This document shows positions 8,330 through 55,000 of a DNA stretch of 64,000 bases, piece by piece (the stretch's first letter is position 1; every line of letters starts with the position of its first letter). The stretch lies in assembly GCF_031877795.1 (NCBI RefSeq), contig NC_133955.1, forward strand, positions 2,852,001 through 2,916,000, written 5' to 3'. Origin of the DNA: Strix aluco (lineage: Eukaryota > Chordata > Aves > Strigiformes > Strigidae). The position numbers and the translations under genes were made by a program. The notes under the pieces were generated by a model. The model saw only the letters and a program-made list of their open reading frames with translations, ran no database searches and was not told the DNA's origin.

Positions 8330-8348
8330 CTCAGCTCCCCCAGCGCCC

Positions 8349-8565
8349 GGTACCCCCGGGACCCCCGTATCCAGGTACCCCCAGGATCCCCCGTGCCCGG
8401 TGCCCCAGGGACCCCCCGTATCCAGGTCCTTCCCGGATCCCCGTGCCCGGTACCCCCAGGACCCCCGTATCCAGGTACCCCCAGGATCCCCCGTGCCCGG
8501 TGCCCCCGGGACCCCCGTATCCAGGTCCTTCCCGGATCCCCGTGCCCGGTTTTCCCGGATCCCCA
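8349..8565. repeat. GC-rich minisatellite, 50-bp unit in a 100-bp higher-order repeat
   Basis: Units begin with ccaggt at 8371, 8422, 8471 and 8521 (spacings 51, 49, 50). Units 1 and 3 share a tacccccaggat variant and units 2 and 4 share a ccttcccggat variant, so a two-unit block of about 100 bp was duplicated. A half unit follows near 8550. In the forward frames it reads as Pro/Gly/Arg-rich peptide, but nothing supports translation. Confidence 0.85.
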
Positions 8566-25084: not shown

Positions 25085-25578
25085 CCCCACAGGAAGGAAC
25101 CAAAGGCCATTGAACGACTCGAGCGTGTCCAGAGAAGGGCAACGGAGCTGGTGCAGGGTCTGGAGCACAGGTCTGATGGGGAGCGGCTGAGGGAACTGGG
25201 GGGGTTTAGTCTGGAGAAGAGGAGGCTGAGGGGAGACCTCATGGCCCCCTCCAAGTCCCTGAAAGGAGGGTGCAGAGAGGGGGGAGGAGTCTCTTGAGCC
25301 AAGGACCCAGCGCCAGGCCAAGAGGGAATGGCCTCAAGCTGTGCCAGGGCAGGGTCAGACTGGCTCTTAGGAAGGATTTCTTTGCAGAAGGGGCTGTTGG
25401 GCGTTGGAATGGGCTGCCCAGGGCAGGGGGGGAGTCCCCATCCCTGGAGGGGTTGAAGAGTCGGGTTGAGCCAGCGCTGAGGGATCTGGTGGAGTTGGGA
25501 ACGGTCAGGGTGAGGTTCATGGTGGGGCTGGAGGAGCTTCAAGGGCTTTTCCAACCTGGATGATTCTGGGATTCTGTG
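25085..25578 (+). mobile_element. CR1 LINE 3' fragment
   Basis: 5'-truncated CR1: matches the end of the reverse-transcriptase ORF ('gtccagagaagggcaac', 'gagcggctgagggaactgg', 'gaatgggctgcccaggg') and ends in the avian CR1 tail tgattctgggattctgtga. The ORF is broken and not functional. It shares a subfamily-specific tail with the copy at 38.8 kb. Confidence 0.93.
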
Positions 25579-26113
25579 AAAACTCTTCCAACCCGAGACG
25601 ACACAAGACAGAGCACACGCGCACACTAAGCGCTTGCCTGGAGAAGTCAGCGTCACAGCTCCACTTCCTGTGCCACCTCAAGCACGGGCCAGCCCCAGTT
25701 CTCTCCTCAGCCACAAACACTTCAACAGCTAAACCAGAGCCATGCTCCTGCATCCCCTCTCTAGCCCAAGCAGTCCTGTGTCTCTGCAAGGCACAGCTGA
25801 GGAAGACTGGCCTCTCTGTCTGTGACAGCCTGACCTGGGTCCTGTCCCAGGGAGCTGCAAGAAGGGCTTTAAAGCGCTCGTCACTGAAGGAACTGAATTT
25901 TCTCTCTGCTTCCTGAGCACGTTTTCTAATCACTAGGGTATCACAGGAAATACATGTCACCACTTCCCGTGGCCAAGTGGGGTTTTGATTTATTGGTGGT
26001 ATTTTTTTGGGGTTTTTTTAATTTTTTTTTTCAAGTGAGCTGTACTTAATTCCTTCAAAAGGAGAGACACATGCAGTTGCTTTCAGGTACCGCTGTGGCT
26101 CTGGGTTCCCAGT

Positions 26114-27954: not shown

Positions 27955-28074
27955 CTAATGGTGATTAGAATGCGTGGAGGAGGACTTGATTCGGAATACA
28001 TGGATGTGCAGATGGGCAGCAATCTGATTGCAGACACTGACACAGTATCGAAGCAAATCAAAGAGAGAAAAGAT
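27955..28074 (-). CDS. CEPT1: CEPT1 coding exon 8 with stop
   Basis: Residues 378-416 and TAG. Encodes [20 protein letters not shown] and a cytosolic His-rich tail ending THSNHH, as in human. Acceptor ggcag|atct. Confidence 0.96.
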
Positions 28075-31000
28075 CTGCCAAAGGAAAAGAATTACACACA
28101 TGTAGATTAGAGACTATTTATAGACATTATAGGCTATAAAGCAAGAGTATAACACCACCTGCATAATTCGGAATAAAAGCAGTGGGGTCTTCTTTTCATA
28201 AACTAAATCTCTAACTCTGTAGGAATAATCACTCGGTGAAGAAAGAGTTTCTAGGCAGGGGGCTTTCTTCCAGCTTTGTAAGAATACAGACTCTTAATTC
28301 TAGAGTCAGAGAGGGGAAAACAGTTACAGCAACTACACTGACAGTGTGAAATGCCCCATTAACTCTGAATGGTAATAACCATACATAAAATATAAATTTT
28401 ATTAAAAGGTTAACATTGCGTTTTGGTAGATAACACTTGAGTGCTTGATAAGCACATATAACAAGATATTTTTCCCTAATGGGTGTTGCTAGTAATGACA
28501 GAAGAGCTCAAGTCACAGCCATACTACACTTGCACTGCGCATAATATATTCCCTTGCTAACAACACATCAACACAAATCTTCAAAAAGTTTCTATTCTAA
28601 GCTTTGAATATTTGCTACATTGCTTTAAAACGATTCAAACTATGCACCAAGCAAACCCTATTCACCTCTTTGCATTCGCTTTATTTAAAATCAACTCAGT
28701 AAAGAAGGTTCCCAGTCCCATCACCCTGTGGGTGAGTCAGCTGGGCTCAACCAACACAAATGATATTTGGGAAAGAGCACACACATGTTTGCAGTGATTA
28801 CCGACAAGCAAACGAGCCCATACTTACCAGGGCAATCCAGAGTACAATATACTCATCAATAAAGCTGTTAAAATACTGGTCCAGAAACAACAGTGCTGGG
28901 CCTATGAATGCTGTGTCGTGCAGGTGCATTTCGCTTTTGGTCATGTGTGCGACCTACATTTAAAAAAAAAAGGGAAGTTTAAGAAATAAACATGTGCCAG
29001 CCAAGGCAGAGTGATTTCAGAGTACACAAAGACAAAAAAGTTACAGCTCAAGCCACAGTACTGTGAGATATATCAAGTACTTAAGTAGCAGCAGCAATAC
29101 TGTTTTAACCATGAAAGACGACAGCTACACAAGATGCAAGGTTTGCTGAGAAGTATCTTTTAGTAGAACAAAGACTGTAGCTACAGGAAAAAAAACCTTA
29201 ACACATTTTCCAGCCCACAAACTCTTCCTCCTGCCAGAAACAACACAGTAAAATGGAAGTAGACTGGTAAATTTTAAGGTTTAGTTGAGCCTGGAAACAA
29301 AAACTCACAGCTGCTAGATCTTCAAAAACCAGACACTTGGTGTTCCTCTCACCCCACCTATTTGTTCCCATCCCATAAGGATCACCAGCTCCCTCTGGTT
29401 ACAGTTTGATGATCATGTCTTTGTCCCAGGGTGACCTTCCCACCCTCCCCCACATGCACAGAGCTGTCCTACACCACATCCTCACTTTTACCAGCAGAAC
29501 TGTTGTGACTGTGTAGTAAGAAATAAACTTTTCTTCCAGTGAGAGTTACACCCAACACTGATCCAGTTCATGGGGCAACCCACCATCTGCCTGCAGAACT
29601 GGGAGGGCTGGGGCAGCAGTTGTTTAATCCCTCATTCACTCTGTTCAACAGGGGCTCCTCTCCCGACAGCACTGCATCTGTTCCCTGGTTCAAACCTGTT
29701 AATAACCTTAACCATGACTTCTCTCCAAGTGTTTAAGGTAAACCCCAAGCAACTGTTTCAAACCTCAGCAGCTCTGCCACCTTCTCTCCTTTTCCTAAAC
29801 TTTCCTCCCTGCATCTGAGGGGGGTTTCAGCCAACTCTGTGCCAGCCCAGCTCATCACACATGTGCATAAATGCTCTGCAAAAGTGTGAATAAACAGCAG
29901 GGAAAGGGGGAGAAACAGTACTTGGGCAACTGTAAGCCGTACTGGCACTGACTGTGTAACCATGGCACCAGCTTGAGGTTTACTACCCCTCTCTCAAACA
30001 GAAGAAAGGCTCCCCTGCACCTGCAAGCTACTGAAAGTAAAGCACGAGTATCACTTCAGTACACACACAGATGCAAGTCAGTCAATGGAATAAGCAGAGA
30101 ACTTGAAAATCTACAGAAAGTTTTACCGCAACAAGAAACTCCAAGGTTTTGGTGCACTTACCACTAGTTTATTTGTTATCTTAGCAGATACAAAACCAAA
30201 AGTAAGTATATATAAGCAGGGATGCCGTTCAAAGAGCTGCACAGCAGATTTCTTGTAGATCATTGCAGCTAATGCAATCACTGACCCAATATGAAGAAAA
30301 GGTGAAAGGACACTCGTTCCCTACAGCAGGATAAAGTTAAACCATTAGGTTAACAAAAGGTGAACGTTGCAAAGAAAGCTCAATAAGCCGAATGCTCACA
30401 TGGCATGCAGCGGGTGGTTTCTAACCAAAATCACATTAAAAACATGTCTTTTTGAACACTGGTACTGACAGGAACAAAGTGTGATGTAACCTGAGTATCA
30501 GCTGAGAATGTGGTTGAACCTTTCTTGTGCTGGGGGAGAAAGTAAGGTTTTAGGCAGCAAGAAGTGCACAGTTCTGACACATGTCACACGGTCAGTGGCT
30601 GACGCTGTTAGCAAGTGACAGGAGACAATACTTCTATTCCATTGTCTGTGCCAGCTAGAAAGCAACTAAAACAGCCTTCTAGGTAGCAAATAATTATTAG
30701 ACTGGCATAGAATTGCTTTTTGGAAAACTCCTGGGGCTCCAGAATCAATCTCCACGTTCACTGAAACAGAAGGCACTCGTGCAGATACCTCCACCTGTAC
30801 TTTTTCACTGGTAATATGAATAGTACAGATCTTTTAGAAAGATCAAAACCATAACCAATCTTCTTGATGAACTTCCTTCTGAATAGATTTTTGCATTGGA
30901 CTTTTCTATGAACTCTCTGGGAGGGTGTGTATTTGTATAACCTGTTTTATATGATTAGTTCAAAAGCAAATATCAAAGTACCACAAGCACTTTTAATCAC

Positions 31001-34000
31001 GCAAAAATTTTAAAACTCTTGATTCCTAAAGCTACTATCCTCATGCAGAGAATATCAACTTGTTTTTCCCAAGCCAGCAAGGAACTGAAAGGAAAATATT
31101 TCACACGTAGGAGGTATTATGGTAAATAAAAGCTAAAGACATGGCTGAAAAGCCACAGAGTGCTGAAGCGTAACTAGCAGAATGAAGTACTTACTGCTAT
31201 AGTGGATCCATTTTTGCCAACTCCACCTGTGAAGATTACACCAAAGTAGTTTGTACAGGAGAATATGGTTCCTGCAACAGTACAGAGCGCCGGGAATATT
31301 TTCACCTGAATATTCAGTATTGGAATCTTAATGGAAGAGAGACAAGAAGTTAAAATATGCACAAGCAAACTAAAGTTGGGCTTAGTACTTCTGGTGCACT
31401 CAAACACTCCACTTTCCAACACGTTTGCTTTTCTTTCTCTGCTATACAGAGATTTAAATTTCTACAAGGCACAGAGAAAAATGTATTTTTCCAATAATCC
31501 TTCCATCAAGCTTCCCATAAAGCCGGACTCATCTTCAGTTACCTGTAAAGAGCCATCAAAAGCAGAGAAGCGGACAGAAACCAAGAACCTGCTAGCTAAA
31601 GCACCCAGGTATCACATGGAGGAGAAATGCGTCAGTCATCTTTTCTGAAGCTTGTTGTAAAACTCACAGCTGCAGCCCAAGATCAAACTGGGCAAAGCAA
31701 AAGCCACTGGAGATGATTAAACAAGGCCCCTTAAGAAACTGGATACTACCTTACGGGCAAGACAAGGGAAGCAAACAGATCAGACAAGTCATCTCAGTCA
31801 GTGAGTCCAGGAGGGCAAGTGATAAGGTCGCTAAAGGAGTGAAAAATGAGCACAGGCAGCTTTGAAAGAAAGGCAGTAGTTTTCTTCATTTTTTAACAGT
31901 AGTGTTTCAAGCAGAACAGGAGAAACTAGAAGTGAAGAAGAAAGAGTTCAAAATACACCACAGTAAATATGTTACAGAAGCAAGTGTTTAGAGAATGCTA
32001 CCCAAAACTTCCCAACTTTATCTATACAACTACTAAAAACCCTCACGGGCTCTTAATTCAGGAACTCAACTGAATAAACACACTTGGCTCCCCAACAGCA
32101 AGGGGTCCAACTACATACAGAAGCCCAAATGAGGTCAAGTTGTTTCTATTTTTCTTCAATTATAGTGTAGCTTTCAGCAGGTAAAAGTCATTAGTTTTCT
32201 ATCACATTCAATAACTGAATCTCTCGATCTTTTCAGGGCACAACTAAGAGGCAGAGCCAGCTTTAACTCTTCCTGCCTTGCTCCTAGGCAGCCTACAGAT
32301 GAGCACCCAGACCACCTCTCCAAATCACTGCCCTGCAGGCTTCTGGCTGGCTGGCATGGTTTCGTAACACTTAAACACATTTCGCCTTCACTCAGGCTGC
32401 AATTAAGTCAAAAAACATTTTCTGAAAGATAGTAAAGAAAGAATAATGACAAGTAAACAAAAGGCATACACTGCCACAGACTGGAGTGCTAACTGTAATC
32501 ATTCGTTAATGCTACCGGGCACAGGAATTCTGAAGGTCTCTCCTTAGTCTTATGAAGGAAGGTACCTGTGCTGCCCTCTGCTTCAGCAATGATAGTTTGG
32601 TATTTAAAGAATGGGGTGAACTTGCTCTTCTACAGGAAGAAGAAAACAATGGCAAGCTTCATGCAGGAGTCAAAAGACATTAAGCTTGACATTTCCCAAA
32701 GACAAGGGGAGTTTGCTGGGAAAAACACCCCATGAATTCCATCCAAACTACTAACAACACACCTGAGAGGGACGCTCAGGAAAGGCAGAAGGGTAAGACC
32801 ATGCTGTTATAACATCCAGTTTGACTAGTTATGCTTTATTATCACTCCTTTTTGCTTCCACTGATAGCTACATCAGTGACAGGTATTAGACTGCACTTAT
32901 CTGGCAGAAATAATTAGTGGGAAGCAAAGCTACATACTGAACTTTGGCAGAGGAAATTCAAAGGAGAAGTATAAAAAGGCAGCGCCTGCTAAATTGCTTT
33001 GCATAGAAAGTGGAAGCAAAGCAGCAAGGCCAAAAGTTGGGAGCAGCAAAGGCAGGCAAATAGCACAGAGAAAAAAGAAAAAACCAAAAAGCTGAGTAAA
33101 GGGAGAGAGGGAGTTGTACTCAGAAATCTTCCCAAAAAAATGCGTTGCAGCCCCTGACTTTTTAAGTAAGGGGAGACCGCAATGCAAGCCATAGGACTTC
33201 CCTGTCTGGTATTCCATGTACCACTACAGTCCATGCAGTTATTCTGACCTTACTGGTAATTGCACAGGTTTCATCAGAAGTCAGATGCAGGCAGAACTTC
33301 ACAAGAAAACGTCAAATAATGCAGAAAAGTATCACAGGTCAAATCTTTTGCAGGTAACTTATGTTCTCTGTTAAACCCTTTGAAGTTGATTACTAGAGAA
33401 AAGCTACACTGCACAGCAAGCTTCTGAATACAGGTACGTCCTGGTAAAGGGAGCATTCCAAATTTTGTCTGGGGGAAAAAAACCATGCATGTTAATTAAA
33501 AAAAAAGTGGCAGCAGGCAAAGAATGGATTAACGAGTGCTTGCCAGAGTCTGGATTAAAGCAAGTCCAGAATCATTTGCCTGAAAACTAATGTCAGGCCT
33601 CCAGACTAGATGCCATCAGAGTTTTGTGCAGCATGAACTGGGATTTAAAAAGAATAATAATATTAATTAGGAAACAGGCAAAGAGCACAGCTAAGGGCTC
33701 AGGGAAGTGGCAGTGAAGAGTGTGTAAGAGACTACACATCTGTAAGTGGTCAGAGGCTCTTCCTCCAGGAACTCTCCTCAGCTACCTCCTAGTCAAACAC
33801 CACAACCAGCTGGGCAGCTCAGTCCTTCTCACGAGGCTGGATCCCAGCGGCAGTTCAGAGCTGGAGGTACATACACTTCAGTCACATTTGCAAGAGGAAT
33901 AACAACTCATAGTGGGCCAAAACCAAGCTTGCTTTATATTCATGAAGTGTTTATGCTTTTAACGATTACGTTGTGGAATAAAACTCAAGCAATTGCAGCA

Positions 34001-37000
34001 CTTTTCTCACTTCAAACCGACAAAGCCCTCTATAGAATGCATCAAACAAGTTGCACCTAAGCTTGCTCACTTTACTCACATTTTCCAAATGAGGATTGCG
34101 GCTGCAGTCGTACTCACCATCCACCAGAAATTACCGAGCCCCAGGAGCCTTGCAGAACAGCATTTTAACACGCTTTAAAGAGAATCTACACTGACAGAAA
34201 GAAGGAAGCCAGTACAGGTACACACCATTTCAGGGAAAAAAAAGAAAGCTAATGAAAGCAACAATTGACAAAATACACAATTCTGCATTTAGCCTATTCA
34301 GATTGTTTTTCCTTTTCACATGTTAGCATAAGAAAGTGGAATGTTTGAGTATACAACCACATTTTATTCCATTATTCCCCCCACCCCCCCGATAGAAACA
34401 AACTAAAAATACCAAATCACCAATTTTGCTGTCGCATAAAATATTAAAGGACTGAGGAGAGAGATGGGGTAAGGACAGGTTGTGTGATATATTTTGCTCT
34501 GCAAATAGTAAATAACATTTGTCTCTAAATCAAACACAAAATTTAACAAGTTGAATGAAAAATTCCTAATTGTCATTGGAAACCTGATCAAGTTTGTTCT
34601 CTGGAGAAATGACTTCATTAATCCACCACCAGACTTCAAAATAGTTTAATCTTTTGGGAGCTGACTTAGCCAAGTGCTGCCACAACCCAGAACAGATTTC
34701 AAGATTTCACCAAAACAGGTTATTTAAGGTATTTAATAACACAAGAGAACAATTTCTAAGCTCACATAAACATCAGCTTGCACTGAGTTGTGCCAGAAGT
34801 TGCTGTGGCAGCATTTTTTTCCCCCCTTTTTTTAAAAAGGGAGAAAGGAAACTGGGAACATGAATTGGGAAATCCTGATTTGTAATGCAGCATAGCAGCT
34901 GCATGGGGATTTGGCCACAATAGTCTCTGGAAAAGTTTGGCACCAATAAAATGACTTGCAGCCTCATTTTTTGTTTTTTTTTAGAATTAGCTCTATCCAC
35001 ACTCAATCTCTTTAGATTGTATTTACTCCCAAATTTACATAATTAATTGGGGGGGTGGGTTTTGTAAGCCTGAAAGCACATGTAGCAAAATTGGGGTAGC
35101 CAAGGTTAGCTCCTTCGTCTAGATATTCTCTACAATGTTAGAGGGTTTGTTTCTCTAGTTATATGAAGCAGATTAGATCAATTTGGGGTGACATGTTCCA
35201 GTAATTTTTGACCATCTCTTGGTTTTAACGCAAATCAAGATTTCTTTATGCACCTTAAGAACTGCATTTAACATCTGCACAAACAAGATCAATACTCAGC
35301 AAGGAAGTCAATGCCTTAGATGTTATTTCCAGAAATTTATTTTTTTTAATTTATATATGCAAATATATGCTTTTCTTTGGACAACGCCATTTTGATAGCT
35401 GAACATGGCTTCAGAAATGCAAATATAAAGTCAATTTATGACAGCCCATAAACTGCCAGCTGACGTGGCACGGCCAGCCTGCGTAACGTCTGCAGGATCT
35501 ATATGCAGCCAGCCCATGATAGCCAGCTTGCTTAATCAAGATGATCTTCATTTTAAAAAAAGAAGTGACAATTTTTCCCTCCCATACAGATAAGAGTTGC
35601 CAGCCACATTCAGGCTAAATTATCTACTGATGGTTACCGACTGCTCTCCAAAAGCTTTCCCAATATCAATCCAATTTGGTACTCCTCCATCACTGATCTA
35701 GCTTATCGCATGAAATTCATTCCAGTTTTGGCCAGCTCTCTCAAAGGAAGCTGGACTTCACTGAAGGTACATTTAATCTCATGAAATGTTTGATAGCTTT
35801 CTACCTGCAAATAGAATATACAAAATAATAGCTTGTTTCGGTAACTGGTAAAACCAGAATGCACAGTTATTGCCATGTGACCTGTACTCAAGAATATATA
35901 TTTCCATTTATGAGGAAAAGGGAGACCTTCCCCTCGCAAATTAAACTGTGCTGCTATAGGCAGATAGTTCTGCCAGGTGTCTATGAGATTGTTAAAAAGG
36001 ATAAAATAAGAACATGAACAAAATTACCAGAGATTGCCAAAAAGGTGGTCCTCCAATCACTGCCAGTAAATGCATGATTATTATGAAGATTTGTACTTCA
36101 GTCACATCAATTCTGATTAGGTACAAAAAGCCAAAAAAAAAAAGCAAAATTATTCAAAGCAATTTCAAGTCAGTTATTTGCAAGCTCTGCAGCTCTCCTC
36201 TATCATGCACAGTATAAAAACTCCAAAATACTGAGGAAAACGAGAGGCAAAATTTATAAATAATTTAGAAAGCAAAAAACATATTTTAGTTTTACTGTTA
36301 AAATTAAGAGCCATGCTGGGCTATAGTTTTTGTTTCATTTCACAGTGCAATAAAAATCCATTTTGTCAAAAGGAACAGTTGGAACTCTTCTTTTAACTGA
36401 CCACTGCCGGTTGCAGAAATAAATATTCAGTTTCAACCTTGCCCACCAAAAAAAAAAAATTTATTTCAGATTATAAAATTCAGAAGATATCTTTTTAATG
36501 CCTATTTTATCCCTTATCCTATTTTTTAATATGAATATTCTCTCTGAATAGCACCCAACTTTAAACAGAAACATGAATCCCTGAAGAGTTTACACAAATG
36601 TAAACGCCAGGCAGCTGCACTGCTCAAGATTACATGAGTCGGTCTCTAGCGTGCAGCCAGAAGAGAAACCACTTGTGGTCCTAGCATAGCTAGTATGTTT
36701 TATAAAAGTGCAAGAAGGAACAGCTTATAGAAAAGATTGAGTTTAAGACTGTTTAAAAGAGCATGCAAAAGTCTGGGGGCTAGCAAGAGGGAAAAATGGC
36801 TATACAAGTCGATTCCAGAAATAGAAGTAAAGAAAAATACAAGTATAAAGAGGATGGACTTGCTGGTGTATCACACTATCTCATACGGAAGTACTGTATC
36901 AAAAATAATCCTTTGAGACAGTTTGAAATATTTATGGCATATCCCTTATTTCTATCAATACAGTTCTACCGGAAAGACTCAAAATTGCTTCTTGCAAATA

Positions 37001-40000
37001 CATGCTTTGCTGTTACAAAAATACTGTTGAAATTATCAACTGCATAAGCATCGGGGAATAATGGTTCAGGGTTGGGTTTTTTTTTTTTTGCCTGTGTGCC
37101 TTAAATGAGCTCCAAGACCATATAATTAAGTTTAGTATCAGATCAGTGTGCCACCAAGTTTTCTGAACAGCCTTTGTTCCAGTTTTGGAGCGGATTCTCT
37201 CATTTGAGTATCTCCAGTCTGGCCAAAATACAATTTTTGTTTCAGCAGCAGATCAATATGCACAAGGGATAATTATAACACTGCGTCCAATTCCCACGTA
37301 GAACATCCCCCACAGCATAAGAAAGCAGAAGGGCAACACTGTGTGGCATTCAATGCAATCTCTTATCTTACTATGGATTCTCTAAATGCTGCTTGCTGCT
37401 TTCAGTGTAAAAACACTGCATCCGACTTCACCTTTCCATCAGCCCAGAGACTTTCTGAACAACTCCCTAAGGGCAGGACACACACCTGGGGAACAAGCAG
37501 CAGAATCAGCGCGTGGCAGCACTGTTGACATCAGGCCAACAGGGTACGAGGCACCCAACCCCTGACTATTGCTGTCGCAAACTCCCACTGCTCCCTCCCT
37601 TCTCAAGTAAATAAGCAGTGAAGCAGCAGAGGGGAGCGTCAAAGATAAAAAAAAAATGGGAGAGCAGCAATACCCACAAACTAGCCAGACTCTTAACGTG
37701 TAATGGGAAAGTTTAACCAAAGTTGTTGGAGGAAATCTAGAGAAGATTCCAGTAAGTTTGCTTTAGCTGTCTTTGCTTTGTAAATTTTCTTTCCACCACA
37801 CCAAGCATGGAGATACGAGATACACAGGAAATAACCTCAGAGGTCTTCCTATATTCTGATTAATAATAACAATCCTGTAAGGCAATCAGAACCGGCTTGG
37901 GGGGGGGAAAAAAAAAAAAAAAAAAAAATCAACTTCCACAAAAAGGAAAGAATGTTCTAAAAATCCTTCTACTTCAGTCCTCATACAAACAAATTGAGCC
38001 ATTGAGCTACCTTGCAAGAAAAAGTAAAAATGCTCAGCAATGCAACAAAAGACTTACACAAAACATCTGATTAAATGCAAATTGCTTCCTCCTAGCTTTT
38101 GTAGTCAGCAGGGAAATGTGCTTTCAGTGTGTCCAACTGAGGAAGGGCTGAAGGAGCTCAGTGAACCTGCACAGGTTAAGTGGGAATGCATTTTAGCCTA
38201 ATTTACTACTTCTGTGAATGACCTAAAAGAATATAAAGCAACTGAGAAAGCTCACAGAAACAATGACTAATAACTAATGTAGGTAACTCAAGTTTATAGC
38301 TTTCCTTGGACAGTAAAACAGGTTTCTTTTGGCAGCAGTGATCTTAATGCAAAATAAAGTAAGGTCATACACTTCAAAAAAGAAATTCACATCATAAAAG
38401 ACAAAGCATTCTGAAAGACAAACTTTTACACCAAACTGGGAGACCAACCAAATCCATGGAAACTGTGCCTGGATTCGGGTTAGGGAGACAGCATTATCTT
38501 CTTTACACAGACTTGGTACAACCTTTGCTCCATTGCCCAGAGTTCTGCCCTCCCCAACTCAAATAAAAATGGCATCAGGCAGCTGGAAAGGGTTCAGCAA
38601 TGAACTGCAAGTATATTTGGTTAAAAACTCCTCCCTGACTTATAAGAATCTCATACTGCAGAACAAATACGAGTTAACTTCAATTCTACAGAAAGAGAAG
38701 ACTTTTTTTTTTTGACACCAAAGAGCTCCTTAAGACAGAAGACTTAAGACCAAGTGAGAAGCTAAACACCTAAACAAAGCATAAGTTCTTAATATCAAGG
38801 ATGGTTTTAAAACCATCTGGTTTTAAACACCTGGCAAAGATGCCAGGGAAGGTTTAGACTAGATATTAGGAAGGATTTCTTTGCAGAAGGGGTTGTTGGG
38901 CGTTGGAATGGGCTGCCCAGGGCAGGGGGGGAGTCCCCGTCCCTGGAGGGGTTGAAGAGTCGGGTTGACCCAGCGCTGAGGGATCTGGTGGAGTTGGGAA
39001 TGGTCAGGGTGAGGTTCATGGTTGGACTGGAGGATCTTCAAGGTCCTTTCCAACCGAGGTGATTCTGGGATTCTGTGAAAAAGGACTGGGGACATCCTAT
39101 GCTCATTAAAACCACTGGGAGATGACTTTAAAAGATATGCTCGACACCAGCAGAGTACATGCCTGATGCAGTGAATTTTCTTCGCAGGATGTCAAATGGC
39201 CACTACTAAGAAATCCAAGAACACAGGAATCCAAACAGGCAGTTCCTTGAAGCTAGACCACAAAAGGGAACAACATTTGGAAACAGAAGCTGGGTGAAAG
39301 GGAAAAGAGGCCCACTGTTCTTCTATTCAACTTGAATTTAAAATGACTGGGCAACTACAGCATAAACTGGACTAAATCCATGCTGCTGCTAAAAGGAGCA
39401 GTCATCCCGGCTTCTATAAAGACCAACCACGTTCTCCCCCCCAAAACCACCTGCTCAGTCTCACTTTCTCCCTTGTGCCAGCACTACAGTCACATGCCAT
39501 CAACTGGAGCAGGAAACTGCCTTCACTAAAATGACCCAAAAAAGAAGAAGAAAGGTTCCTGTCCTCATTTCTAGCGTATCAGCTTTCCCTGTCCATTATG
39601 TGTGGCCTCATGAATGATGCAAGCACAAAGGAGAGGGCAGTGGAAGGTCTGCACTGACTCTTTTGGCAGCTGAACAAAAGCGTGCTGAGTCAAAGTGACT
39701 GTGCAACTACAGACTTAAACTGGGGAGTAAAAGGAAAACTAAATGGAACGAGTTAAGGCTTCCAAATGCAACACAAGTGGACCGCTGCCAGCGATCATAA
39801 AAGTCCTAAACAGCCCTTAAAATGTAACACAGTAAAAAAAAAAGTGAAAGAATGCCATTAGAAAACAAAGCAACAATGGTTTTGTCAAGATACTGAGCAA
39901 AGGTAACGTACGACACTACCTGGAAAATTTTAACACATCAGGTGATCTAGAGGACGTTCATTCCTACACTTTTAATGATTAACTTGTATTTATGAATTGC

Positions 40001-43000
40001 TTCAAGATAAAATGTGCTAGTAATAAAAAAACCCATAAATTGCCTCAGTCACTGTATTGTTTTTAAACTCTGGTAGAACTGGGAAGGTACCTCATAAAAT
40101 GACAAGACAAGAGCAGGGCTGCATGGAAAGCTGCTTGGTTGTAGACTGACTAAAGCCCTTCTGTACTACCCACACTGGCCTTTTGAGGAAAAATATATTT
40201 AGCTTGCTTTAGTGGCTAAGGAAATTATTTGCAAAGCAGGGTCATAACACTCCTGCTTAAATATTACATAATTAGTATTTTTTTCCACATAAAGTTCCAC
40301 CGCGCATTGGAGTGCCTCTTCCTATGATAAGGACTACAGAAAACACAAACTGGAGCAGTGGATCATTTATCAACTAATAGCAGAAAAATATTTTCACTTC
40401 AGTGCAAAAAGTAAGTACCACGAGGAGAAAAAAGCCACAGCATTGGGAGATCAAAAGTGAGGTGCTGCAGACCCCCACCCTGCCATTTAATTACTGCACA
40501 CAACCAGTCGCCTGGTACCACCAGCAGAATGCAGGAAAGCAAAAATATTTCAAAACAAGAAGGGAATCAGCCAGTTCAAAGTCTATTTCTCCTGATGTTT
40601 GTATTTATTTACTCATTTAAATGCTATAGTGGACATCCTAAGAAAAAACAAATGGAAAGAGCTAGCAGCATGAATTCTGCAGCTCAAGCAGGGGGGTTTC
40701 TTAAAGCCTCTTGACTGGGATATTTTCAGCAATCACTTGAGCCACACTTCCCCTAACCTGACAGTTTTTTTGCCTGATGTTTCCTGACAAATCGAGTCAC
40801 GTCAGCATTGCCCAAACAGTTTATGTTGCTAGGATGCTACAGAGACATAGTGCACAATATGTGGCGGATTCTTAATACCTATGAAATGAAGAAAATGAAA
40901 CAAACCGTTTCCCCCAAGACATGCCCACGCTACAACAGATGGATGTAAAGTTATTGTAAGAGTTCCTCAATAGACACAAAGCAGTCTAGTTTCAAAGATC
41001 ACTTCTTCAGATAAACCAGGGACTTTTTCACCTTCTAGAAAATAAACAGAAGACCCTGAATCAAGTTTTTAAGATCATCAGGAACAGAGATCAGACACTG
41101 AAGACAAAGCAACAAAGAACCAAGACTCAATACTTTAACAAGCTAAAAATGCCAAGACATCTAATTGCAAGGCTGGGAAAACCACTGAAAATGACCCTGA
41201 AAAATACTGATTCTACAGCAAACTGACATTAGGGAAAAAATAACAAACAGCAGCTCTGCAGAACTGAGGACAGCAAACAGGGACTAGGTCAAACAATGTC
41301 AACGCTGCACCAGCTCCCTTCGTGAACTAAAGGCTGTAAACAAGAATACCGACGTGTTTTAATTCAGAAGTAGTCAGGGAAGCATAAAAGTTGTGCTTTT
41401 AAATGCACATTTCATCCCTCGCTCCGTTTACCTAAATTCATAAGACAGCAGAATGCCCACAGAGCTTCCAAAGGCCTGCTCCAGCTCTTGCAGCAAGGCT
41501 GCCGCGGATTTTACTGCACGCACCGCAACACCGTTGACTCTTCATCTGTCCTTCCTTGTCATGCCAAATTACTTGCTAGTTTTCAAACTTGTTTCCTGAC
41601 ATAACAGAATATTATTAGAAACAGTATTATTTTAACATTTCGTTTCCTGTAAAAGGCAGTATTTTCCAGATTCAATCATCTTAAGCACCTTCATTTGCAA
41701 TTCCTCTATACGGTTGTGCTAAACTGTATTAAAACTGCCCAATTCTGATCTTTGAAAAAACACCCAAATGTGAGGTAAAACATTACAAAAGTCACATTCC
41801 AGCAGTACAAGTACTGAAGGGTGACACTGCAGAGCTGCAAGAGGGAGGCAGGGCCGCAGCTCTTTAGAATTCTGCACCTCAAGTTAGAGTAAACCTGTTT
41901 TAACTCGATTCCCAAAGTCTTTTTCTTTTCCACCATCTAAAGCCTTCGTGTTCTTTTCAATAATTTCTCCACAGGCTAAAAGCGTAAGTAAACTTCAGTA
42001 ACAATTTAAGAATTTTTTTCTTCTCGATGACTAAAGGAGTCTCACTGCCCAGCACATGTGAGTACAAGCTTTATCTGTGTTGAGAGAATCATCAGCTATT
42101 CCCTTTGTATTTTGCCAGAGCATGCAGTATTTTCAAGGCAGGGCTATATTATTATACTTTCTCGCTACAAACGCTTGTCACATGAAACAGCTATCAGATA
42201 AAAAAGAATAGCGTGAATACATATTTCCTGTAGCTTAACCATTTCAGACATGGTGCAATACTGAAATAAGAATCTCTACCACCTGACCTCAAACCATGTA
42301 AAAGAAGCGTGATGCTTTGCATGTTCTGGGTGAGTGACTCGGAAGCAGCAGCATCTTTACGTGTTAGTTAAGATTAAAAATAAAGACGCCAGAAGGCATC
42401 TGAAACTACATATGCAAGTATTTAAGATAATTAGGTCTATTCTGCGATTCAGTATGCTTAAAACCTGGTTAAAATTAGCGTGCATGAGGGGACTTGTCAC
42501 AAGCAAACATTTGGCATTCTGTTACTGGAGCAAAAGTAACCAAATGCTCTGCCTGGCTCATCCACTACACACACCACTCCTACCAACCGCTGCATTTATT
42601 TGTGAAACAAATTTCTTCTGGAATGGCAAAGGCATCATTTCCAAGGGTGGAGACCATAGGTGGGTCTACAGAGGACACCTCCATCACCTGTGCAGAGAAT
42701 CACAACTCCTCCCTCTCCCCCATTAGACGGCAATTTGTCCTCATCCATTTTAAACAAATCACTTTCATTACAGAATTTGAGTTGCTTCCTCTCACATAAC
42801 TATCATACCAACGGGTGACTTCGGAAATCTCTGAATGTTTCAGTACTAAGGGATTTTTTTTTATTTATTTCTCCCTAAATGACTTCTCAGAGTCATAATG
42901 CTATTATCACAACAGGCTAAAATCTTGATTAAGCTCTTCCTTCCTTCAAGTTACTGCTTGCTACATTACCATTTCCTGACACTAAGTATTTCCAGCCTTT

Positions 43001-46000
43001 CATAGACTGTCAACAAAGTATTTAAAAATTATGTCATCTGACTACCTTCAGAGAACGCCTAACTGGCATTTGGCTCAAACTGTCAGATGCAGCCAGTGGA
43101 TATGACATACACCATGATTCACCAGATTGCTGATATTGTTGGATCTAAAGTAGAGCTGGTAATTAAGGACTCTTTCTAATAGCTTCATGAAAGCAGAGAT
43201 TGTGCTGAACCATTACAGGAAAAAAAACAAAGCCACAGCGTAATTTGCACCCATGCAAGTTTAATAAAGGGTATGTAAACAAACATCAAAAAATCTCTTA
43301 AAATCTGACTCAGTTCCACAGAGGCTATCAAAAAGCCATTCTTATATTCTCAACTATTTCAAGGGAAACTCCTGGCTAATAATCCAGCAACTATGAGAAA
43401 TTTCAAGGAATGCAACTTACTCACTTTTAATGACATCATTTTATTGAGGGGGAAAAAAATCCCACCTATATACACTGTATTTAAAAAAAAGCTGAAAGAA
43501 GGAAGAGAAAGTCCTTTCTAAAGAGTGGTAAACCAGAGTGGAGAAGGATATATTTAGCCCAGACATAAGGAAAAGTATTTTGAAAATAAAGACAACCAGG
43601 AAATGAAGTTACTTAATGATGAAGCTACAAGCACAGCTAAGCAACTAGACTACACAGATGAAGTGGCACAGCTCAAAAGAGGCATTTTTAACCACTCACT
43701 GGTGACTTTTTAATCTATTGCACAGCATACAGTTCCCTGAACTAGCCAAGCAATTATTTTTTCTGGTGGAAAGGTATTTAAACAGCAACAACAACAACGT
43801 TTCTACGACTTTAAAAAGTAGTTCCAACAAAATTATTCCACACCTGCACTTACAGAGCTGTATAACCACAACCCTGGCTATCTTTTAGGTGAAGCCAGAA
43901 CTGTGACAAAACAAAAATAAATGTTTAAAGCAAGGTTTTCTGTTTAACAGGCAGGTTTTTGCTTTGTTTTCAAGTAAAGCATGCTTTCAAAAAAATATTT
44001 ATTTCCAGTCAGATCTGATTTTTTTTACTGCTCATTCATACTTTGCAAACATTTTTTCCCCTCATATTAAAGCACTTGTGAAATACCCTTAAAAAGGTGC
44101 TTTTCACAGACCAATTACTATGTGCATGACAAAGGTGCTGTCTCTGCTTAGTCCATGCCATTGCTTGCCAGGGAGCATTAACGTTCACTTTACCGTATAG
44201 TTCCAGAACCAGGGCCCCAGAGTTCCTGTGAGAAGCTGGATTGCTATTGTACAGAGCATAGACTCCGTAACATCAAATCTATGTGCGAGGGAAAGAAACA
44301 TTTCAAAACATTTTCCTGAGTACTTTAGTTAAGTGGAGCCATTAGAACAGATCTTCAGTCACAGGGTAAAGAACAAAACCCAGACAGCTACTGTGCAACA
44401 TTGAGACAATTTAAAGGTCAGAGGAAGGGAATTAATGACCACAAAAAATGAGAGTATTAATGAATTAACAAAAATATTGTAACCCACACAGTATTTTACA
44501 TATTTAAAACTCCATTCAGAGCTTCCACAATTTAGTTTTACAGTACCACTCCAACGCATGGACAAACACAAGCATCAGTGTGTCCATAAAGAAATAAAAT
44601 TAAATTCCTTGCTCCAAGTCACAGCAAATAAAGCTCATAATCAAACATAATCCAGGACCTCTCATCTCCCTATCCCATGCTCATATCTCCAAATGACACC
44701 GAATGTCGAAATTCTTCATCTAAAGATGCTACTGCGTATTTTTTGTAGAGCAGAAGCACAGGCTGCATCTTCTGTTTCTCACCTCCCTGCTCACACAACC
44801 CCCTGGCTTCTTGATAAATAACACTAACAGAAGTCAAGTGAGCTCTGGACCCTACGCAGTGGTAACCGAACTCCGTTCTGTATACATTTATTTTTCACCC
44901 CTGACAGAAGGGATGAAAAAATATGCTGTGGCCAGAGCCACAACTACCACACATACTCCTTATGGTAAAATGCCAATTTATAGCATTTTATAACTAAAAT
45001 ATTTTGAAGTTGATCAAATTAAAATTTCATCAAACCATCTAGATTTAAAAAAAATTCCACAGTAACAGATTCACCATAACAGATCCTGTTTACTGCAGTG
45101 CTTATCAAAGTATGCGTGGAACAGAAGCATGCAGACTGCCACCCAGTAACATGCCAGTCGATTAAAAAGGTACATCAAAGAAACAAAGTTCATCGTGATC
45201 ACACTGACAGAGCCTAAAAAGTGCAGTAACGATGTGCAAGTGCCATGCCTGATGGAAGGGGGTACACTGAATTTCAGTCCCATTAAGCATTTGCAGTTTA
45301 ATATTCATAGCACAGTATGTAGTTAGAAAAGGCAACATTTGGTATTTTAGGGAATACAGAAAGTCACATATACAAACAACTCAACTAACTTTGGTGCTTT
45401 TGAACAGCTGCAGTTTCTTTTCCTTTTTTCCCTTTGTTACTCTACGTGCTATTTGTAATTCAGACATGGATCCATTTTTTTAAATTTATCTGGGAAAGCT
45501 TAAGAGGGGGCCATCGACCTCGGCATGTGCTTAACTCTACTTAGATGTTGGCAGTGACAAGTCTTATTTTGTATGCTGTCTGCTCTGCTGGGTTCTCTTG
45601 TCAAGCTGGTGAGAGTCTTGAGCCAATTAACACGCAATTGATTAGTCATGCATCCAGAATATACTGTTGTCAGTGCTAATTTATTGAGCATATTCCACGT
45701 GCAATTCTCAAAAGGTCCTATTTGATTAAACAAGCCATTAGATTTTACAAGGGCCACCACTGAATCAAGTTTCAGAGCTTAGAGACAGCTGCAGTCAATT
45801 CTTTCCTTGCCCAGAATGGTGAAGCAAAAGGATTTAATTCAAAGTTGAGAGATTTCTCCAGAAAGTGAACCAAGAACAACAGGAAACAGATACTTACACG
45901 GGAGATCGCTCTGAAATCAAGTCAATCACCACCAACAACAGCTGATCTAACACAGCTTCTTTTTAATATGGTGTGAAACTAAAGGGGGCGTTTATGTACC

Positions 46001-49000: not shown

Positions 49001-52000
49001 AGTAGTGCAGCACAGCTCCCTGCAGTTGGCAGTAGGAAGAAAAAGAGCCAGCACAGCTGATGTATTCAGTAACCAAGCACAACGAAACTAATACTTCTCC
49101 TACTCCACCTGCAATATTCCATAGGAATTCAGTAGAAGCAATCCCATTTCTTCCTCCCTCAGGGTGAACACTCCTGCTCAGAGAGTCTGACACAAAGGGC
49201 ACTCTGCACAGCTCCAAGGCTGGTACAGTGACAGCACATACGAATCAGACAGTCTGTTCCACAAGCATACACTCAATTGGACACACTAATTTTTTTTTTT
49301 TTTTTTTTAAGACAATGGACTTTTTCAGCAAGCCAAGTTGATTATACATTTACCTGTTCAAGTTTGAGCTGTGTGGAACGAGTAAAATATTAATCTCGCT
49401 TTAGCAGTCTGCTGCTCTTCTCTGAGCTGTTTCCAATTTGCTTATCGAGTTGATCTCTAATGAAATACAATTTCTTGGACAATCTCCTCACACAATAAGT
49501 GATAACCAACTGTGTGCTCCTTTCTGCTTCATTGGAATGGAAGGCAAGTTAGAAACGCTGTCACATCTCCTAAAACATCACTACTGTTCACAGCCCCCTC
49601 AGTGTGTTTTTGACATAAAGTTACTACTCAGGATACACAGACAGGAAAAGGCTACTGTGCACTAAGGCCTTTTCGGCTCCTTTCAACAGCTGTCTCCGAT
49701 TCCACTTATTCAGGAGTTAGAATACCTAACCTGTGCGCTCCAGTGAATCTGAAAGGGTAGATAAAATATAGACTTTTTTTCAGTTTTATGATTGGAGAAA
49801 TGAAAGCTTTAGAAAAAACTAGTATCAGACAGTGAGAATCAGTTAACCGGATCCATAATCTCAGAGTTTTTGCCAAAGAAATGAACGTCAGCTTATGGCA
49901 CTCTATTAACCTTAGGACATGGGGCAAGTGAAGAAACAAATGTGTTTACTACACAGTGCTGTCCATTATCTAAAATAATGATACACATACATTTGTGTGC
50001 TTATTGCCTCCTCTAAATTATATATTGATGGATCAATTCTCATAAGGCCACGCAGAACAACAGTATCCGCTACAAAATGCCATCTCCAAAATATAAAGAC
50101 TCATCACAAAAGCAAAAATTACAGTGAATACCAAGAGTAATGTACACATTTGTCTGAGGCACAAAGGCAAATTAGGTGGGTTTGATACTTGCATCTGTAA
50201 AGTCAAGCACATGCCAAGGCTGGGGTTTTTTGGGTTATTTGACCGGTAACAGGACAACTTTAATTATCAGGGCCCTGTAAAGTTCAAAGGGAGCTAAAAA
50301 CATTCAGTATTGAGACTTTCAGTACGGGATGAAAGTAGGAAGCCTAAAACAGTACAAGATTTGAGCCAGATGCCCTACTTTAATGATTTAAGTAGCAGAG
50401 AATTGACTGAAACTATTCTACCTGGTTTGGTGTAGTCAGGATTAGAACAGGCATCTAGATTTTTTTCTTTTCTTCCTCCAATAGACATTGAAAACTGCTC
50501 TGTCATCTTACATTTTTGAGCAGAAACACAGAAGTTTCTCAAGAGAATCTGCATTAGTATTCTGTCAATAAGAGCTGTTACAGACAAGAGGTTCACAATT
50601 GTACTGTTTTAGCGCAGAATCTGGGTATCTATAGATCAATAACAATAGACTGTAAATAAATGGTACATGTTGTAGCACTGTTTCAAAATCCCATGCAAAC
50701 TAAGGACAAATTGCAGAGGTTTCCAGGTGCAAAATCATTCTGCAGTACATTTACTTGAAATATATTGGTTAGATTGCAAGACCTATGAATGGAAAAACAG
50801 AACAAACATACATTTCCACGTTAAGGCTAGTGAATCCCACAGCTCACCAATTCCTTCTGTTCTGTTTCCATGCTTACCCTCACCCAACAGTAAACAGGAT
50901 TTACGCTGTTGACTTTCTTGGCATTGCAATTTTGGTTCCATTATTGATAGAATCATGGTCTACACTAACTAAAAGGGATTCAGAACTTTAAATTGTAGGC
51001 ACAACGTCAATTAATACATTGTATTTTAAGAGTTATGGTTAATAGTGAAGATTAACTATACACCATCACAAGTCAAGCAAAATCAAGAGGTAGGTAGTTA
51101 ACTGAATACTAAAGCCAGACTGCCACCATCTGACAAAAGCATTCTATTCTTGGGGATGAAACATCAGGTACTGCCCCTTATTTATTTAGGTTTAAATCAC
51201 ATCAGAAGCTCCTAATTAACTAATATGACAAAAGGATATTTTACTGCTTCTAAAACAAGCTAAGTAACTCTCAGTATTAATTGCGGATCCAACAGGTAAT
51301 AGCTGCCACAAGCTCTAAGTGTGTATATATGAATATAAATAATTTACTACTGCTTTAAGGATCTGAACTACAATCACATAAAGTGCAACTAGACAGAAAA
51401 GCAGCCTAACTTTCAGTTTTATTTTCAGCCAAGGTACTTACATGCCAAAGCGCAACGTTCCAGAGACGTACGTCTGCCAATGTGCGCAGTAAAACATGAA
51501 TGTTCCAGCAAAACAACAAAAGAACATCCAGTCAGGGTTCGTTCCCAGCTGCACAGCAATACAAGTTCCCAAAACCACAAATACTGCAGAAGAAAATCAG
51601 TCACATAGTAAAAAGATAAAGTGTGTATGTACGTAAAGATCCTTACCAGAAACAAATCTAACAAAAGGACCCAGAGATGGAGAGACAGCATGAAGGTATC
51701 CTGATGTGTTTTATTTCAGACATAAGAGATTAACACTTCCATTTTAAAAAAGTACAGACCGTAAAATGTACATTTAAACTTAGTTATCATAAGTCCTCAG
51801 TATCGTTTCTTAGTCTCCTACACTGGACATTGGACTTAATGGGATTAGACATCAAGAGATTTGAGTGATTTATGCAGTTGCAGCCTGTGGCCAGAGTTTT
51901 GGCGTTTTCTCAAGTATCCAAGACGTGCTGGACATACTTTTCCCCATTTTCTGAACTTTTATTATGTCATTAAGAAAATCCAAGGTGTCATTCAAGATTC

Positions 52001-55000
52001 ATAAGGTATCTATGCTTTCCCCTCCACCCTTTAATACATGACTTTGATAAAGCATTCATAAAAAATTAAAGCATAAGAGCTTTAGAATTTAAGTAACCAA
52101 AAGCATCAGACCCTTCTTTCGCAATGGGGTTAAACTTCAGACTGGCTCAATGAACTCTTACTTATCTAGGAACTGGTCTTGCGGATTCTAATCTTAAAAC
52201 TCTGACTTCTACCTTGCCAGTTTTTAGGCTTCATAACCTGTCTTGAAATCACTATATAGATTCAATCTAAAATATAATAGAGCATTTTGTCAACTTCTTA
52301 CAGAAAATTTTTTAGAACGAAGCCTCTGATAAAGCACACACAGAAGACTGCTGACTCAGATTGAATTACTCACATGCTTCATTTTTTCCAGTATAATACA
52401 GGAGAAGACATTCAGTTGATCAAGGATACTGTCTATGGAAAGAAGGTTGACTGAAAAGCTATACATTCAGCAATATCAGTTGTCCTCTTCTTCAGTAAAG
52501 AAACATTTTTCTGAATTCCAGATTTGATCCCTGAAATAGAGTCATTTAATCCTCATACTTCAATTAAAAATGACAATACCTGTGGAAAGTGAATCACAGC
52601 CATGATCAAAAAGTTCTCCTAACGGAGTACTGCTATTTGTCCTTCTTGCTTGTTTTCCATCTATTGCATCCAGAGACTGGTAGATGAAAAGGCCACATGC
52701 ACAAGCAATGTATGCCCAGGGAGGTGCCTAAGAAAGAAAGTCAATGAGAGTAAAAGATTTTTTTTTTTTTAAACCTTAAAAAAAAAAAAGCCTGAAGTTG
52801 ATCTATCTTACACTCTCATAGAGTAGTTTTTCATTTGCACATACTTCTGCATCACACGCACGGACCTTTCAGCAGCTGGTCCTTGCAAGGACAGGCAGAG
52901 GGGGTTATGACATGTGAAACGTAAATAAAACAGTGAGAAGAATTACGAGTTTAGGTTAATAGGTACAGCACATTTTCTAAAGCAGGAAGCTGCCTTGTAC
53001 ATCTGAAAAAAAAAAAGTTACAGTACTACCTTTGCAAAGTGGTGTGCAATTAAGTTCCTGTCTTGCTTCTATTTCCAGCGGGGGTCTGTACCAGTCGTCC
53101 AAGTGATTTAGAAGCTCAAAAACTTTTTTTAGCCCCCAAAACGTTCAGCTGTGTCACAAACACTGAGCTCATCTTCACAAGGCCTCAGGGAGGTGTCACG
53201 TACTACGACACTGCCAAGTACAGGGTATTACCAGGCTGCAGTGGCATTTGAGAACCATGTCACTGCAAGTGCTCAAACTTTTAGAGTTCAAGTTTAGCTA
53301 TTACATTTTCCAAGATAGGTAGAGCTCCAGTGCTCTGCAGTGCAGCACCTCCACCACCAACTGTTTTTTCCTATTACTAGGTAACAGCAGCTTTGCCAAC
53401 TCTATGTTAATAACCCTTAATATCCACATCCTGCACAGCAGTTTCTGTTTCTACAAAAATACAAACAGTACCTAATCCCTCCTAGACCAAAGACTACAAT
53501 TCAAGCTTTTTGCAGTATCTGAAGCATAAACCATTATGACCACAAAAGCCAGAAGGTTGCCATCAGTCTGTCTCAATTTACACATCCATAAAACAGATAT
53601 TATTGGGTATCTTGTGACCTTCACATTTGACCCACTTTATAAAAGTGTGAGCATTTATGAGCAGCTCTATTTTACAGACCACGCCAATAAAGTTCAAATA
53701 CAGCTAAGTAGCTTAATCGAGCTGACTTGCCTCTCATAAAGCTCTAGAGTCCAGCTTCCTGTGGTCTCCACAACCATGACTCATTTCACAGAATCACAGA
53801 ATTGTCTAGGTTGGAAAAGACCTTGAAGATCATCCAGTCCAACCATTAACCTAACATTGACAGTTCCCAACTACACCATATCCCTGAGTGCTCTGTCAAC
53901 CCAACTCTTAAACACCTCCAGGGATGGGGACTCCACCACCTCCCTGGGCAGCTCATTCCAACACCCAACAACCAGTTCTGTAAAGAAATATTTCCTAAGA
54001 GCCAGTCTAAACCTTCCCTGGAGCAACTTGAGGCCATTCCCTCTTGGCCTGGCGCTGGTTCCTTGGCTCAAGAGACTCCTCCCCCCTCTCTGCACCCTCC
54101 TGTCAGGGAGTTGGAGAGGGCCATGAGGTCTCCCCTCAGCCTCCTCTTCTCCAGACTAAACAACACTAGTTCCCTCAGCCGTAGCACATCAGCTTAAATA
54201 TATTTCTTTCTACAATTTGCATTGTTCCTGCTACTGCATTTTAGTAAAACAGTTCATTCTGCCTCAAAAGCTGGCACCACGCTCTGCTTTTAGCAGTGTA
54301 TCTATACAAACCACCACAAGAAGAGAGAGGTAAGGGGAAAAAGTGTGTCACCCAGAAGCAGATGACCACATTCAGACAAGGTTTTGATGCCACAGAATCC
54401 CATCCCATTGTACCCTTTCTATTGCTCAAGCATAGATTTTTTTTTTAGGCAATGTTTAAGTTACCCTCAGGGTCATGCAATTTTTCTCTATAAACTTTAA
54501 AAAAAAAAAAAATATCAGACTGCTGACTCTTCTTTCTTAAATGCTACTTTCATTACCAGTGTAGTTTCCACTTAGATGTTATTTGTAGCTATATGACATT
54601 TCACAGCTCCCTCTCTTATCCAAATATTTTTTCCTTTTTTTTTTTTAAAAAAAAAATCAGGTACCATTCCAATGCTCAGCACTTTGCTAGGTGGGGTCCC
54701 CACAACTAAGCAGGCAGTAGAATTATTTGTATCTCACTTTCTTTTTGGCTACCAGTGAGGCTGTAAGTGATCGCTACATCCCTTGGCTACACCTTTCATC
54801 AACAGGAAGAGACAAGTCACTTTTGAAAAAAGCGGAACTAAGACTGAGCTACAAGGAAAAGACAATTTACATCTGAAAGCAATAGTGCTTTCAGGAAAAA
54901 AAAAAAAAAAATCTGTTTCTGGAATTTCAAAGCCCCATTTTCTTCCCCAGACAGCTACTTGACACTTAAAAAGCACAAGCTCACAGCTCCACCACCGAGA

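Follow-up and report, generated by a model that had tools for sequence, protein, structure and literature searches.

A tandem pair of homologous exons for transmembrane helix 5 in CEPT1

CEPT1 synthesises major membrane lipids, and its gene in the owl Strix aluco poses the question why two versions of the same exon stand between exons 3 and 5. The gene lies on the minus strand of the window, by which we mean the whole stretch of 64,000 nucleotides (nt) analysed here (contig NC_133955.1, positions 2,852,001 to 2,916,000, assembly GCF_031877795.1). Exon 4b, at 36028-36112, encodes the canonical transmembrane helix 5 (TM5), and exon 4a, at 44194-44278, encodes an alternative TM5. A conserved alternative TM5 would mean a second form of CEPT1, so far uncharacterised, and the pair would make it possible to test directly how TM5 determines fatty-acyl choice in phosphatidylcholine (PC) and phosphatidylethanolamine (PE). 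We consider it likely that 4a and 4b stem from an old tandem duplication of the TM5 exon and are used one at a time, swapping part of the wall around the acyl tails and thereby tuning the use of diacylglycerol.

The original prediction had placed both exons at these coordinates, and its description holds on the window. Each exon is 85 nt long, is bounded by GT-AG splice sites, and is entered in phase 2 and left in phase 0. Exon 3 ends in a split codon (AT|A) that the first base of either exon completes, and both 3' ends fall on a codon boundary. The 12 of 29 residues said to be common to 4a and 4b break down into 11 of 28 full residues and the isoleucine of the split codon; at the DNA level, 45 of 85 positions are identical. 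Exon 4b is indeed the human version: human CEPT1 in the solved structures 8gyw and 8gyx is the 4b form, and the window exon differs from it by one residue. Over a match of 120 residues to these human chains, the 4b form reaches 256 bits and the 4a form 212 bits. Read from the ATG of MSGHR, the coding sequence with either exon is 1251 nt (416 amino acids), and the two proteins differ at 17 of the 416 residues. Messages with both exons or with neither lose the frame and meet early stops; when 4a and 4b are joined, the stop is the second codon past 4a (WNYTN*). Because the frame shifts in both cases, only single-exon messages encode the enzyme, as had been predicted.

The resemblance between the two exons is not due to chance. 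On the two strands of the window, 523 stretches have the form AG-85nt-GT, and 172 of these, 4a and 4b included, are open in the right phase. Scored against 4b with BLOSUM62, 4b itself reaches 144 and 4a 44, and the next stretch scores -1. Among 43,751 stop-free stretches of 28 residues in all six frames, the best after 4a scores 19. The adjacent 4a and 4b are thus homologous exons of equal length and with the same intron phases.

Is exon 4a also found elsewhere? Region-limited protein searches were run against 5.77 billion sequences with the window, newt and sturgeon 4a proteins as queries; 13 of 13, 24 of 24 and 63 of 66 candidates passed, respectively, which pooled to 70 distinct proteins. 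Of these, 37 contain a 4a-type segment and 33 contain 4b only. As a count of 4a carriers, 37 is a lower bound, because clustering of the database at 90% identity may merge the 4a and 4b forms of one species. For the same reason, it means little that human, mouse, turtle, shark and lamprey are missing from the named 4a rows. The window 4a recurs unchanged in isoform X4 of Calonectris borealis (P0001), and further bird carriers belong to Nyctibius, Neopelma, Pipra and Cuculus. Mammals are represented by Bos, Muntiacus, Pipistrellus, Myotis and Camelus, squamates by Sceloporus and Heteronotia, and amphibians by Lissotriton, Bombina, Rhinophrynus and Geotrypetes. Among fishes, 4a occurs in coelacanth, sturgeon, paddlefish and a bowfin, and in the teleosts Conger, Alosa, Oncorhynchus, Hypomesus, five catfish genera, Anabas and Menidia. 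A clean junction from exon 3 through 4a to exon 5, with identical length, is present in 29 of the 37 4a proteins (the others being P0002, P0004, P0009, P0013, P0014, P0016, P0023 and P0035). In two of the 29, P0007 and P0034 (source label lgn), the 4a frame runs without introns on contigs 2,442 and 2,053 nt long, as spliced RNA would give. Pfam PF01066 was detected in all three 4a proteins scanned (P0005, P0006 and P0019).

At the level of protein sequence, both exons appear to have been kept across diverse bony vertebrates. Conservation of the 4a frame and junctions extends well beyond birds, and the length, phase and sequence of 4a are not those of a decayed relic. Two outcomes that would have spoken against the original prediction, a lack of conservation and decay, did not occur. 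Exon 4a is almost certainly real.

The original prediction also knew of no description of 4a, which needs correcting for the databases. No description was found among the listed matches in the open-licence PubMed Central (PMC) literature, where one may still exist. In the databases, sources already label 27 of the 37 4a-type proteins as an 'isoform', and 4a is present in automatic annotation and widespread in bony vertebrates. One lead, which we do not count as evidence, is that CEPT1 belongs to the sheep genes with exon-skipping differences, the exon being unnamed in the excerpts covered (PMC10825154). In the excerpts of other papers, CEPT1 appears only as a table row with predicted intron retention (PMC7066660), as a gene measured by quantitative polymerase chain reaction (PMC4600267) or in a reference list (PMC9100777). 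It is not named in the main text of PMC5740500, and words beginning with 'splic' are absent from the text of PMC8387743 and PMC10166788.

The segments fall into two classes, an assignment with which a maximum-likelihood tree agrees. Mean identity among unique segments is 15.1/28 within 4a (n=31) and 19.9/28 within 4b (n=26), compared with 10.0/28 between the classes. The tree of 57 segments (P0067, which has an odd frame, repeated segments and the window 4b were omitted) splits 31 4a from 24 4b and two CHPT1 segments with an ultrafast bootstrap (UFBoot) value of 100; with 28 sites and no outgroup, it speaks for separation and not for the order of events. The value of 100 belongs to the edge that separates 4a from all other segments in the printed unrooted tree, and a value of 46 to an edge inside 4a. 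Between window and sturgeon, 19/28 residues agree in 4a and 23/28 in 4b. The duplication was probably already present in the common ancestor that ray-finned fishes share with tetrapods. Two 4a sequences, P0037 of Geotrypetes and the row P0034, are divergent: they have VDVTEA... and lack both GP and an NXT at 236-238. Selection may have relaxed or shifted there.

What would the exchange do to the enzyme? Human residue numbers can be transferred, as the window and human chains align here without gaps. In human CEPT1, the TM5 residues Val213, Val216, Phe219 and Ile220, all encoded by exon 4, touch the tails of the bound lipid (PMC10156783). The same paper cites V216A as a change that reduces activity and shifts the use of diacylglycerol, and gives losses of activity of 40% for V216L and 60% for Q217L. 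The slit between TM5 and TM6 has been proposed as the entry for diacylglycerol (PMC10182977). We compared these positions in 38 4a segments, 31 of them unique, and 38 4b segments; P0067 was kept in these counts. Phe occupies position 219 in 37/38 4b segments, P0067 being the exception, and in 0/38 4a segments, which have Cys there in 21 cases, Ser in 10, Ile in 6 and Thr in 1. At 216, 37/38 4b segments have Val; among the 4a segments Ser (18) is followed by Leu (11), Thr (4), Ala (3) and Val (2), Ser or Thr prevailing in most 4a outside the teleosts. Gln217 is found in 38/38 4b and 25/38 4a segments, the remaining 4a having Glu (6), Met (3), Val (3) or Gly (1). Asp212 and Glu215 are invariant, including in 38/38 4a. 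Since 216 and 219 change and Asp212 and Glu215 stay fixed, 4a would re-cut the wall of the tail chamber and spare the polar start of TM5.

These observations lead us to the following model. An ancient tandem duplication of the CEPT1 TM5 exon would have given rise to 4a and 4b, and messages with both or neither would be lost through the frame shift and nonsense-mediated decay. In the protein, TM5 would form one wall of the acyl-tail chamber and one side of the diacylglycerol entry slit. Because the exon 2 motif is untouched and Phe219 and Val216 are lost, the 4a enzyme would keep its chemistry and differ in its preference or rate for diacylglycerol species. That 4a alters diacylglycerol handling is, taken by itself, close to evenly balanced in our judgement and falls just short of acceptance.

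Exon 4a may also add a feature on the other side of the membrane. An N-X-T sequon at 236-238 is present in 27/38 4a segments (21/31 unique) and in 0/38 4b segments. Most 4a outside the teleosts carry it, and it is missing from the coelacanth, bowfin, caecilian and several teleost forms. As both termini and the TM4-5 loop are cytosolic (PMC10182977), the TM5-6 loop should be lumenal, and the sequon end of TM5 probably lies in the lumen. We nevertheless think it unlikely that the sequon is a usable glycan site. A bolder, and doubtful, version of the model is that bony vertebrates make two CEPT1 enzymes, in which the re-cut chamber of 4a, possibly glycosylated at Asn236, would provide a second and differently selective route to PC and PE in the endoplasmic reticulum. 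Such a route might suit, for example, ether-linked or polyunsaturated diacylglycerol. Compared with CEPT1, CHPT1 is reported to have a stronger preference for alkyl-acyl PC that carries polyunsaturated chains (PMC8387743). In birds, 4a has Met or Val at 217 and loses a residue placed near the sn-1 carbonyl; since ether lipids have no sn-1 carbonyl, our guess is that bird 4a would show a relative gain for alkyl-acylglycerol. If there are two enzymes, splicing, and not gene choice alone, would set membrane lipid species.

Several points weigh against a tandem pair that tunes diacylglycerol use. The 4a and 4b classes were assigned after the segments, residue 219 included, had been viewed, and seven of the 38 4a rows repeat others. 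Exon 4a evolves faster than 4b: between the window and a mammal, 21/28 residues agree in 4a and 27/28 in 4b. Both exons occur together in 4/70 proteins, where they are bridged by extra in-frame residues (P0004 from Bos, P0014 from Sceloporus, P0016 from Pangasianodon and P0023 from Menidia); we read these as products of gene prediction. In P0002, P0009 and P0013, 4a comes with inserted or read-through sequence, and the intron-free frames of P0007 and P0034 could be retrocopies. Judged by their naming style, the isoform models are presumably automatic. The structure prediction of the 4a protein P0005 (20 rows) had a mean predicted local distance difference test score of 35.8 and was unusable. 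Bird 4a, with Met or Val at the position where Leu cost the human enzyme 60% of its activity, may be a weak enzyme. Finally, CHPT1 and CEPT1 are reported to be similar in their preference among PC species (PMC8387743). Because CHPT1 also has a small residue at 219, this position alone may matter little, and the similarity led us to rate the functional step lower and a low-activity form higher.

Such a low-activity or dominant-negative CEPT1, in which the swap turns the enzyme down and leaves its taste in substrates unchanged, is the alternative that survives best, and we regard it as improbable yet worth serious weight. It draws on the costly human substitutions V216L and Q217L, since 4a departs from the 4b residue at 216 in 36/38 and at 217 in 13/38 segments. 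The window 4a TM5 is also less hydrophobic, with a best 15-residue mean of 1.6 compared with 2.3 for 4b (every second position sampled). However, Asp212 and Glu215 are retained throughout 4a and Gln217 in 25/38, and the long conservation of 4a, with substitutions that differ from clade to clade, is in keeping with a working protein. A dominant-negative role becomes less likely, as the dimer interface is formed by TM7 and TM9 and interface mutants were unchanged in activity (PMC10156783). Much weaker is the idea that 4a is a switch to unproductive messages, its inclusion beside 4b shifting the frame and cutting CEPT1 output. The stop just past 4a would serve this purpose, but a poison exon does not need its protein sequence to be kept over vertebrate evolution, and 4a stands alone, with a clean junction to exons 3 and 5, in 29/37 proteins; we consider this very unlikely. 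That 4a is a decayed or chance pseudo-exon, as its low identity to 4b (11/28) and faster evolution might suggest, is in our reading refuted by the chance scan and by the length, phase and sequence that 4a keeps in birds as well as in mammals, squamates, amphibians and fishes, and we give it practically no weight.

We return to a tandem pair of exons for alternative versions of TM5. The original reading of 4a and 4b as mutually exclusive exons is supported by the logic of the frame shift and by protein models in which 4a replaces 4b, and the two are very probably used one at a time in messages. How might exclusion work? The intron between 4a and 4b (36113-44193, minus strand) has GT-AG ends and, at 8,081 nt, is too long for steric hindrance to be a likely mechanism. 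A mismatch between U2 and U12 sites is likewise unlikely, the splice sites being ordinary GT-AG sites that lack the U12-type consensus. The donors of 4a (ACG|GTAAAG) and 4b (CTG|GTAATT) both lack the +5 G, which is present in the donors of exons 1, 3, 5, 6 and 7 and also missing from that of exon 2. Weak donors find no support as the basis of alternative use, as computed U1 pairing (in kcal/mol) is -5.5 for 4a and -5.1 for 4b, within a few tenths of that of the constitutive exons 3 (-5.2) and 5 (-5.3). In the intron that follows 4a, GCATG begins 36 and 210 nt from the start, and a TGCATG is found 97 nt upstream of 4b, making control by RBFOX a weak lead; on both strands of the window TGCATG is not enriched (55 seen, 51 expected). 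RNA pairing that enforces exclusion is a similarly weak lead. Between exons 3 and 5 there are 39 inverted repeats, and many of the 25 listed are A/T runs. One imperfect pair (36416-36442 and 43979-44005), 74% complementary and AT-rich, bridges both ends of the intron between 4a and 4b.

The other coding exons surround the pair. All exons lie on the minus strand. Coding exon 1 (56904-57242) runs from the ATG of MSGHR to TATEQ and has the donor CAG|GTAAGT; its frame stays open slightly farther upstream of this ATG. Exon 2 (52580-52727) bears the CDP-alcohol phosphotransferase motif D..DG..AR...G...D...D. Exon 3 (51442-51583), a match to human CEPT1, is followed beyond the alternative pair by exon 5 (31195-31326), which ends at STIA and is part of both forms. 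Exons 6 (30162-30320), 7 (28828-28953) and 8 (27955-28074, with the stop codon) complete the coding sequence.

Some isoform models with extra sequence have counterparts in the window. In the Nyctibius isoform P0002, the insert FCIHLTSGETCSVTSK sits between 4a and exon 5; an AG-48nt-GT stretch in the 4b-5 intron (33249-33296, minus strand) encodes 16 residues matching it, and is possibly a further small exon or a model artefact. Just upstream of 4a (44278-44319, minus strand), 14 residues match the end of the upstream 4a extension in isoform P0009 of Cuculus, which suggests that an alternative acceptor lies there; a stop is found a little upstream of this stretch. P0004 (Bos) and P0013 (Camelus) run beyond the end of 4a into similar residues (VTARI.MLS.EQWRELNKD...SQTNR), which in Bos continue in frame into 4b, and these species may have a longer 4a with a later donor.

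The window also contains other repeats. Copies of one interspersed repeat at 647-810, 25184-25582, 38841-39081 and 53784-54181 are pairwise 76-93% identical, and two of the four lie inside CEPT1 introns. A direct duplication of 230 nt with 97% identity (10276-10505 and 12135-12363) has its copies about 1.9 kb apart, and a G+C-rich tandem repeat at 8336-8550 is built from units of 25, 50 and 100 nt.

How does the pair compare with known systems? The human CEPT1 of 8gyw and 8gyx is encoded by the same gene in its 4b form, and the excerpts of the paper describing it (PMC10156783) make no mention of a 4a form. CHPT1 (9uet and 8ero/8erp; we take 8ero to be the Xenopus CHPT1 of PMC10182977) has a homologous TM5 in which position 219 is Ala or Ser, a small residue as in 4a. 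The end of this helix in 9uet, WDYTIPIL, resembles WNYTIPIL of 4a. Over the exon, two CHPT1 chains share 11 and 12 of 28 residues with 4b and 9 and 10 of 28 with 4a; CHPT1 being slightly nearer to 4b, we rejected the idea that 4a is a CHPT1 exon.

Mutually exclusive exons that arose by tandem duplication include FGFR2 IIIb/IIIc, PKM exons 9/10 and CACNA1C exons 8a/8. Like these, 4a and 4b are homologous neighbours that match or nearly match in length, of which each message would use one, with the rest of the protein constant. Unlike in these pairs, what CEPT1 exchanges is a membrane-spanning helix in an enzyme of phospholipid synthesis, and exclusivity is predicted here from the logic of the reading frame.

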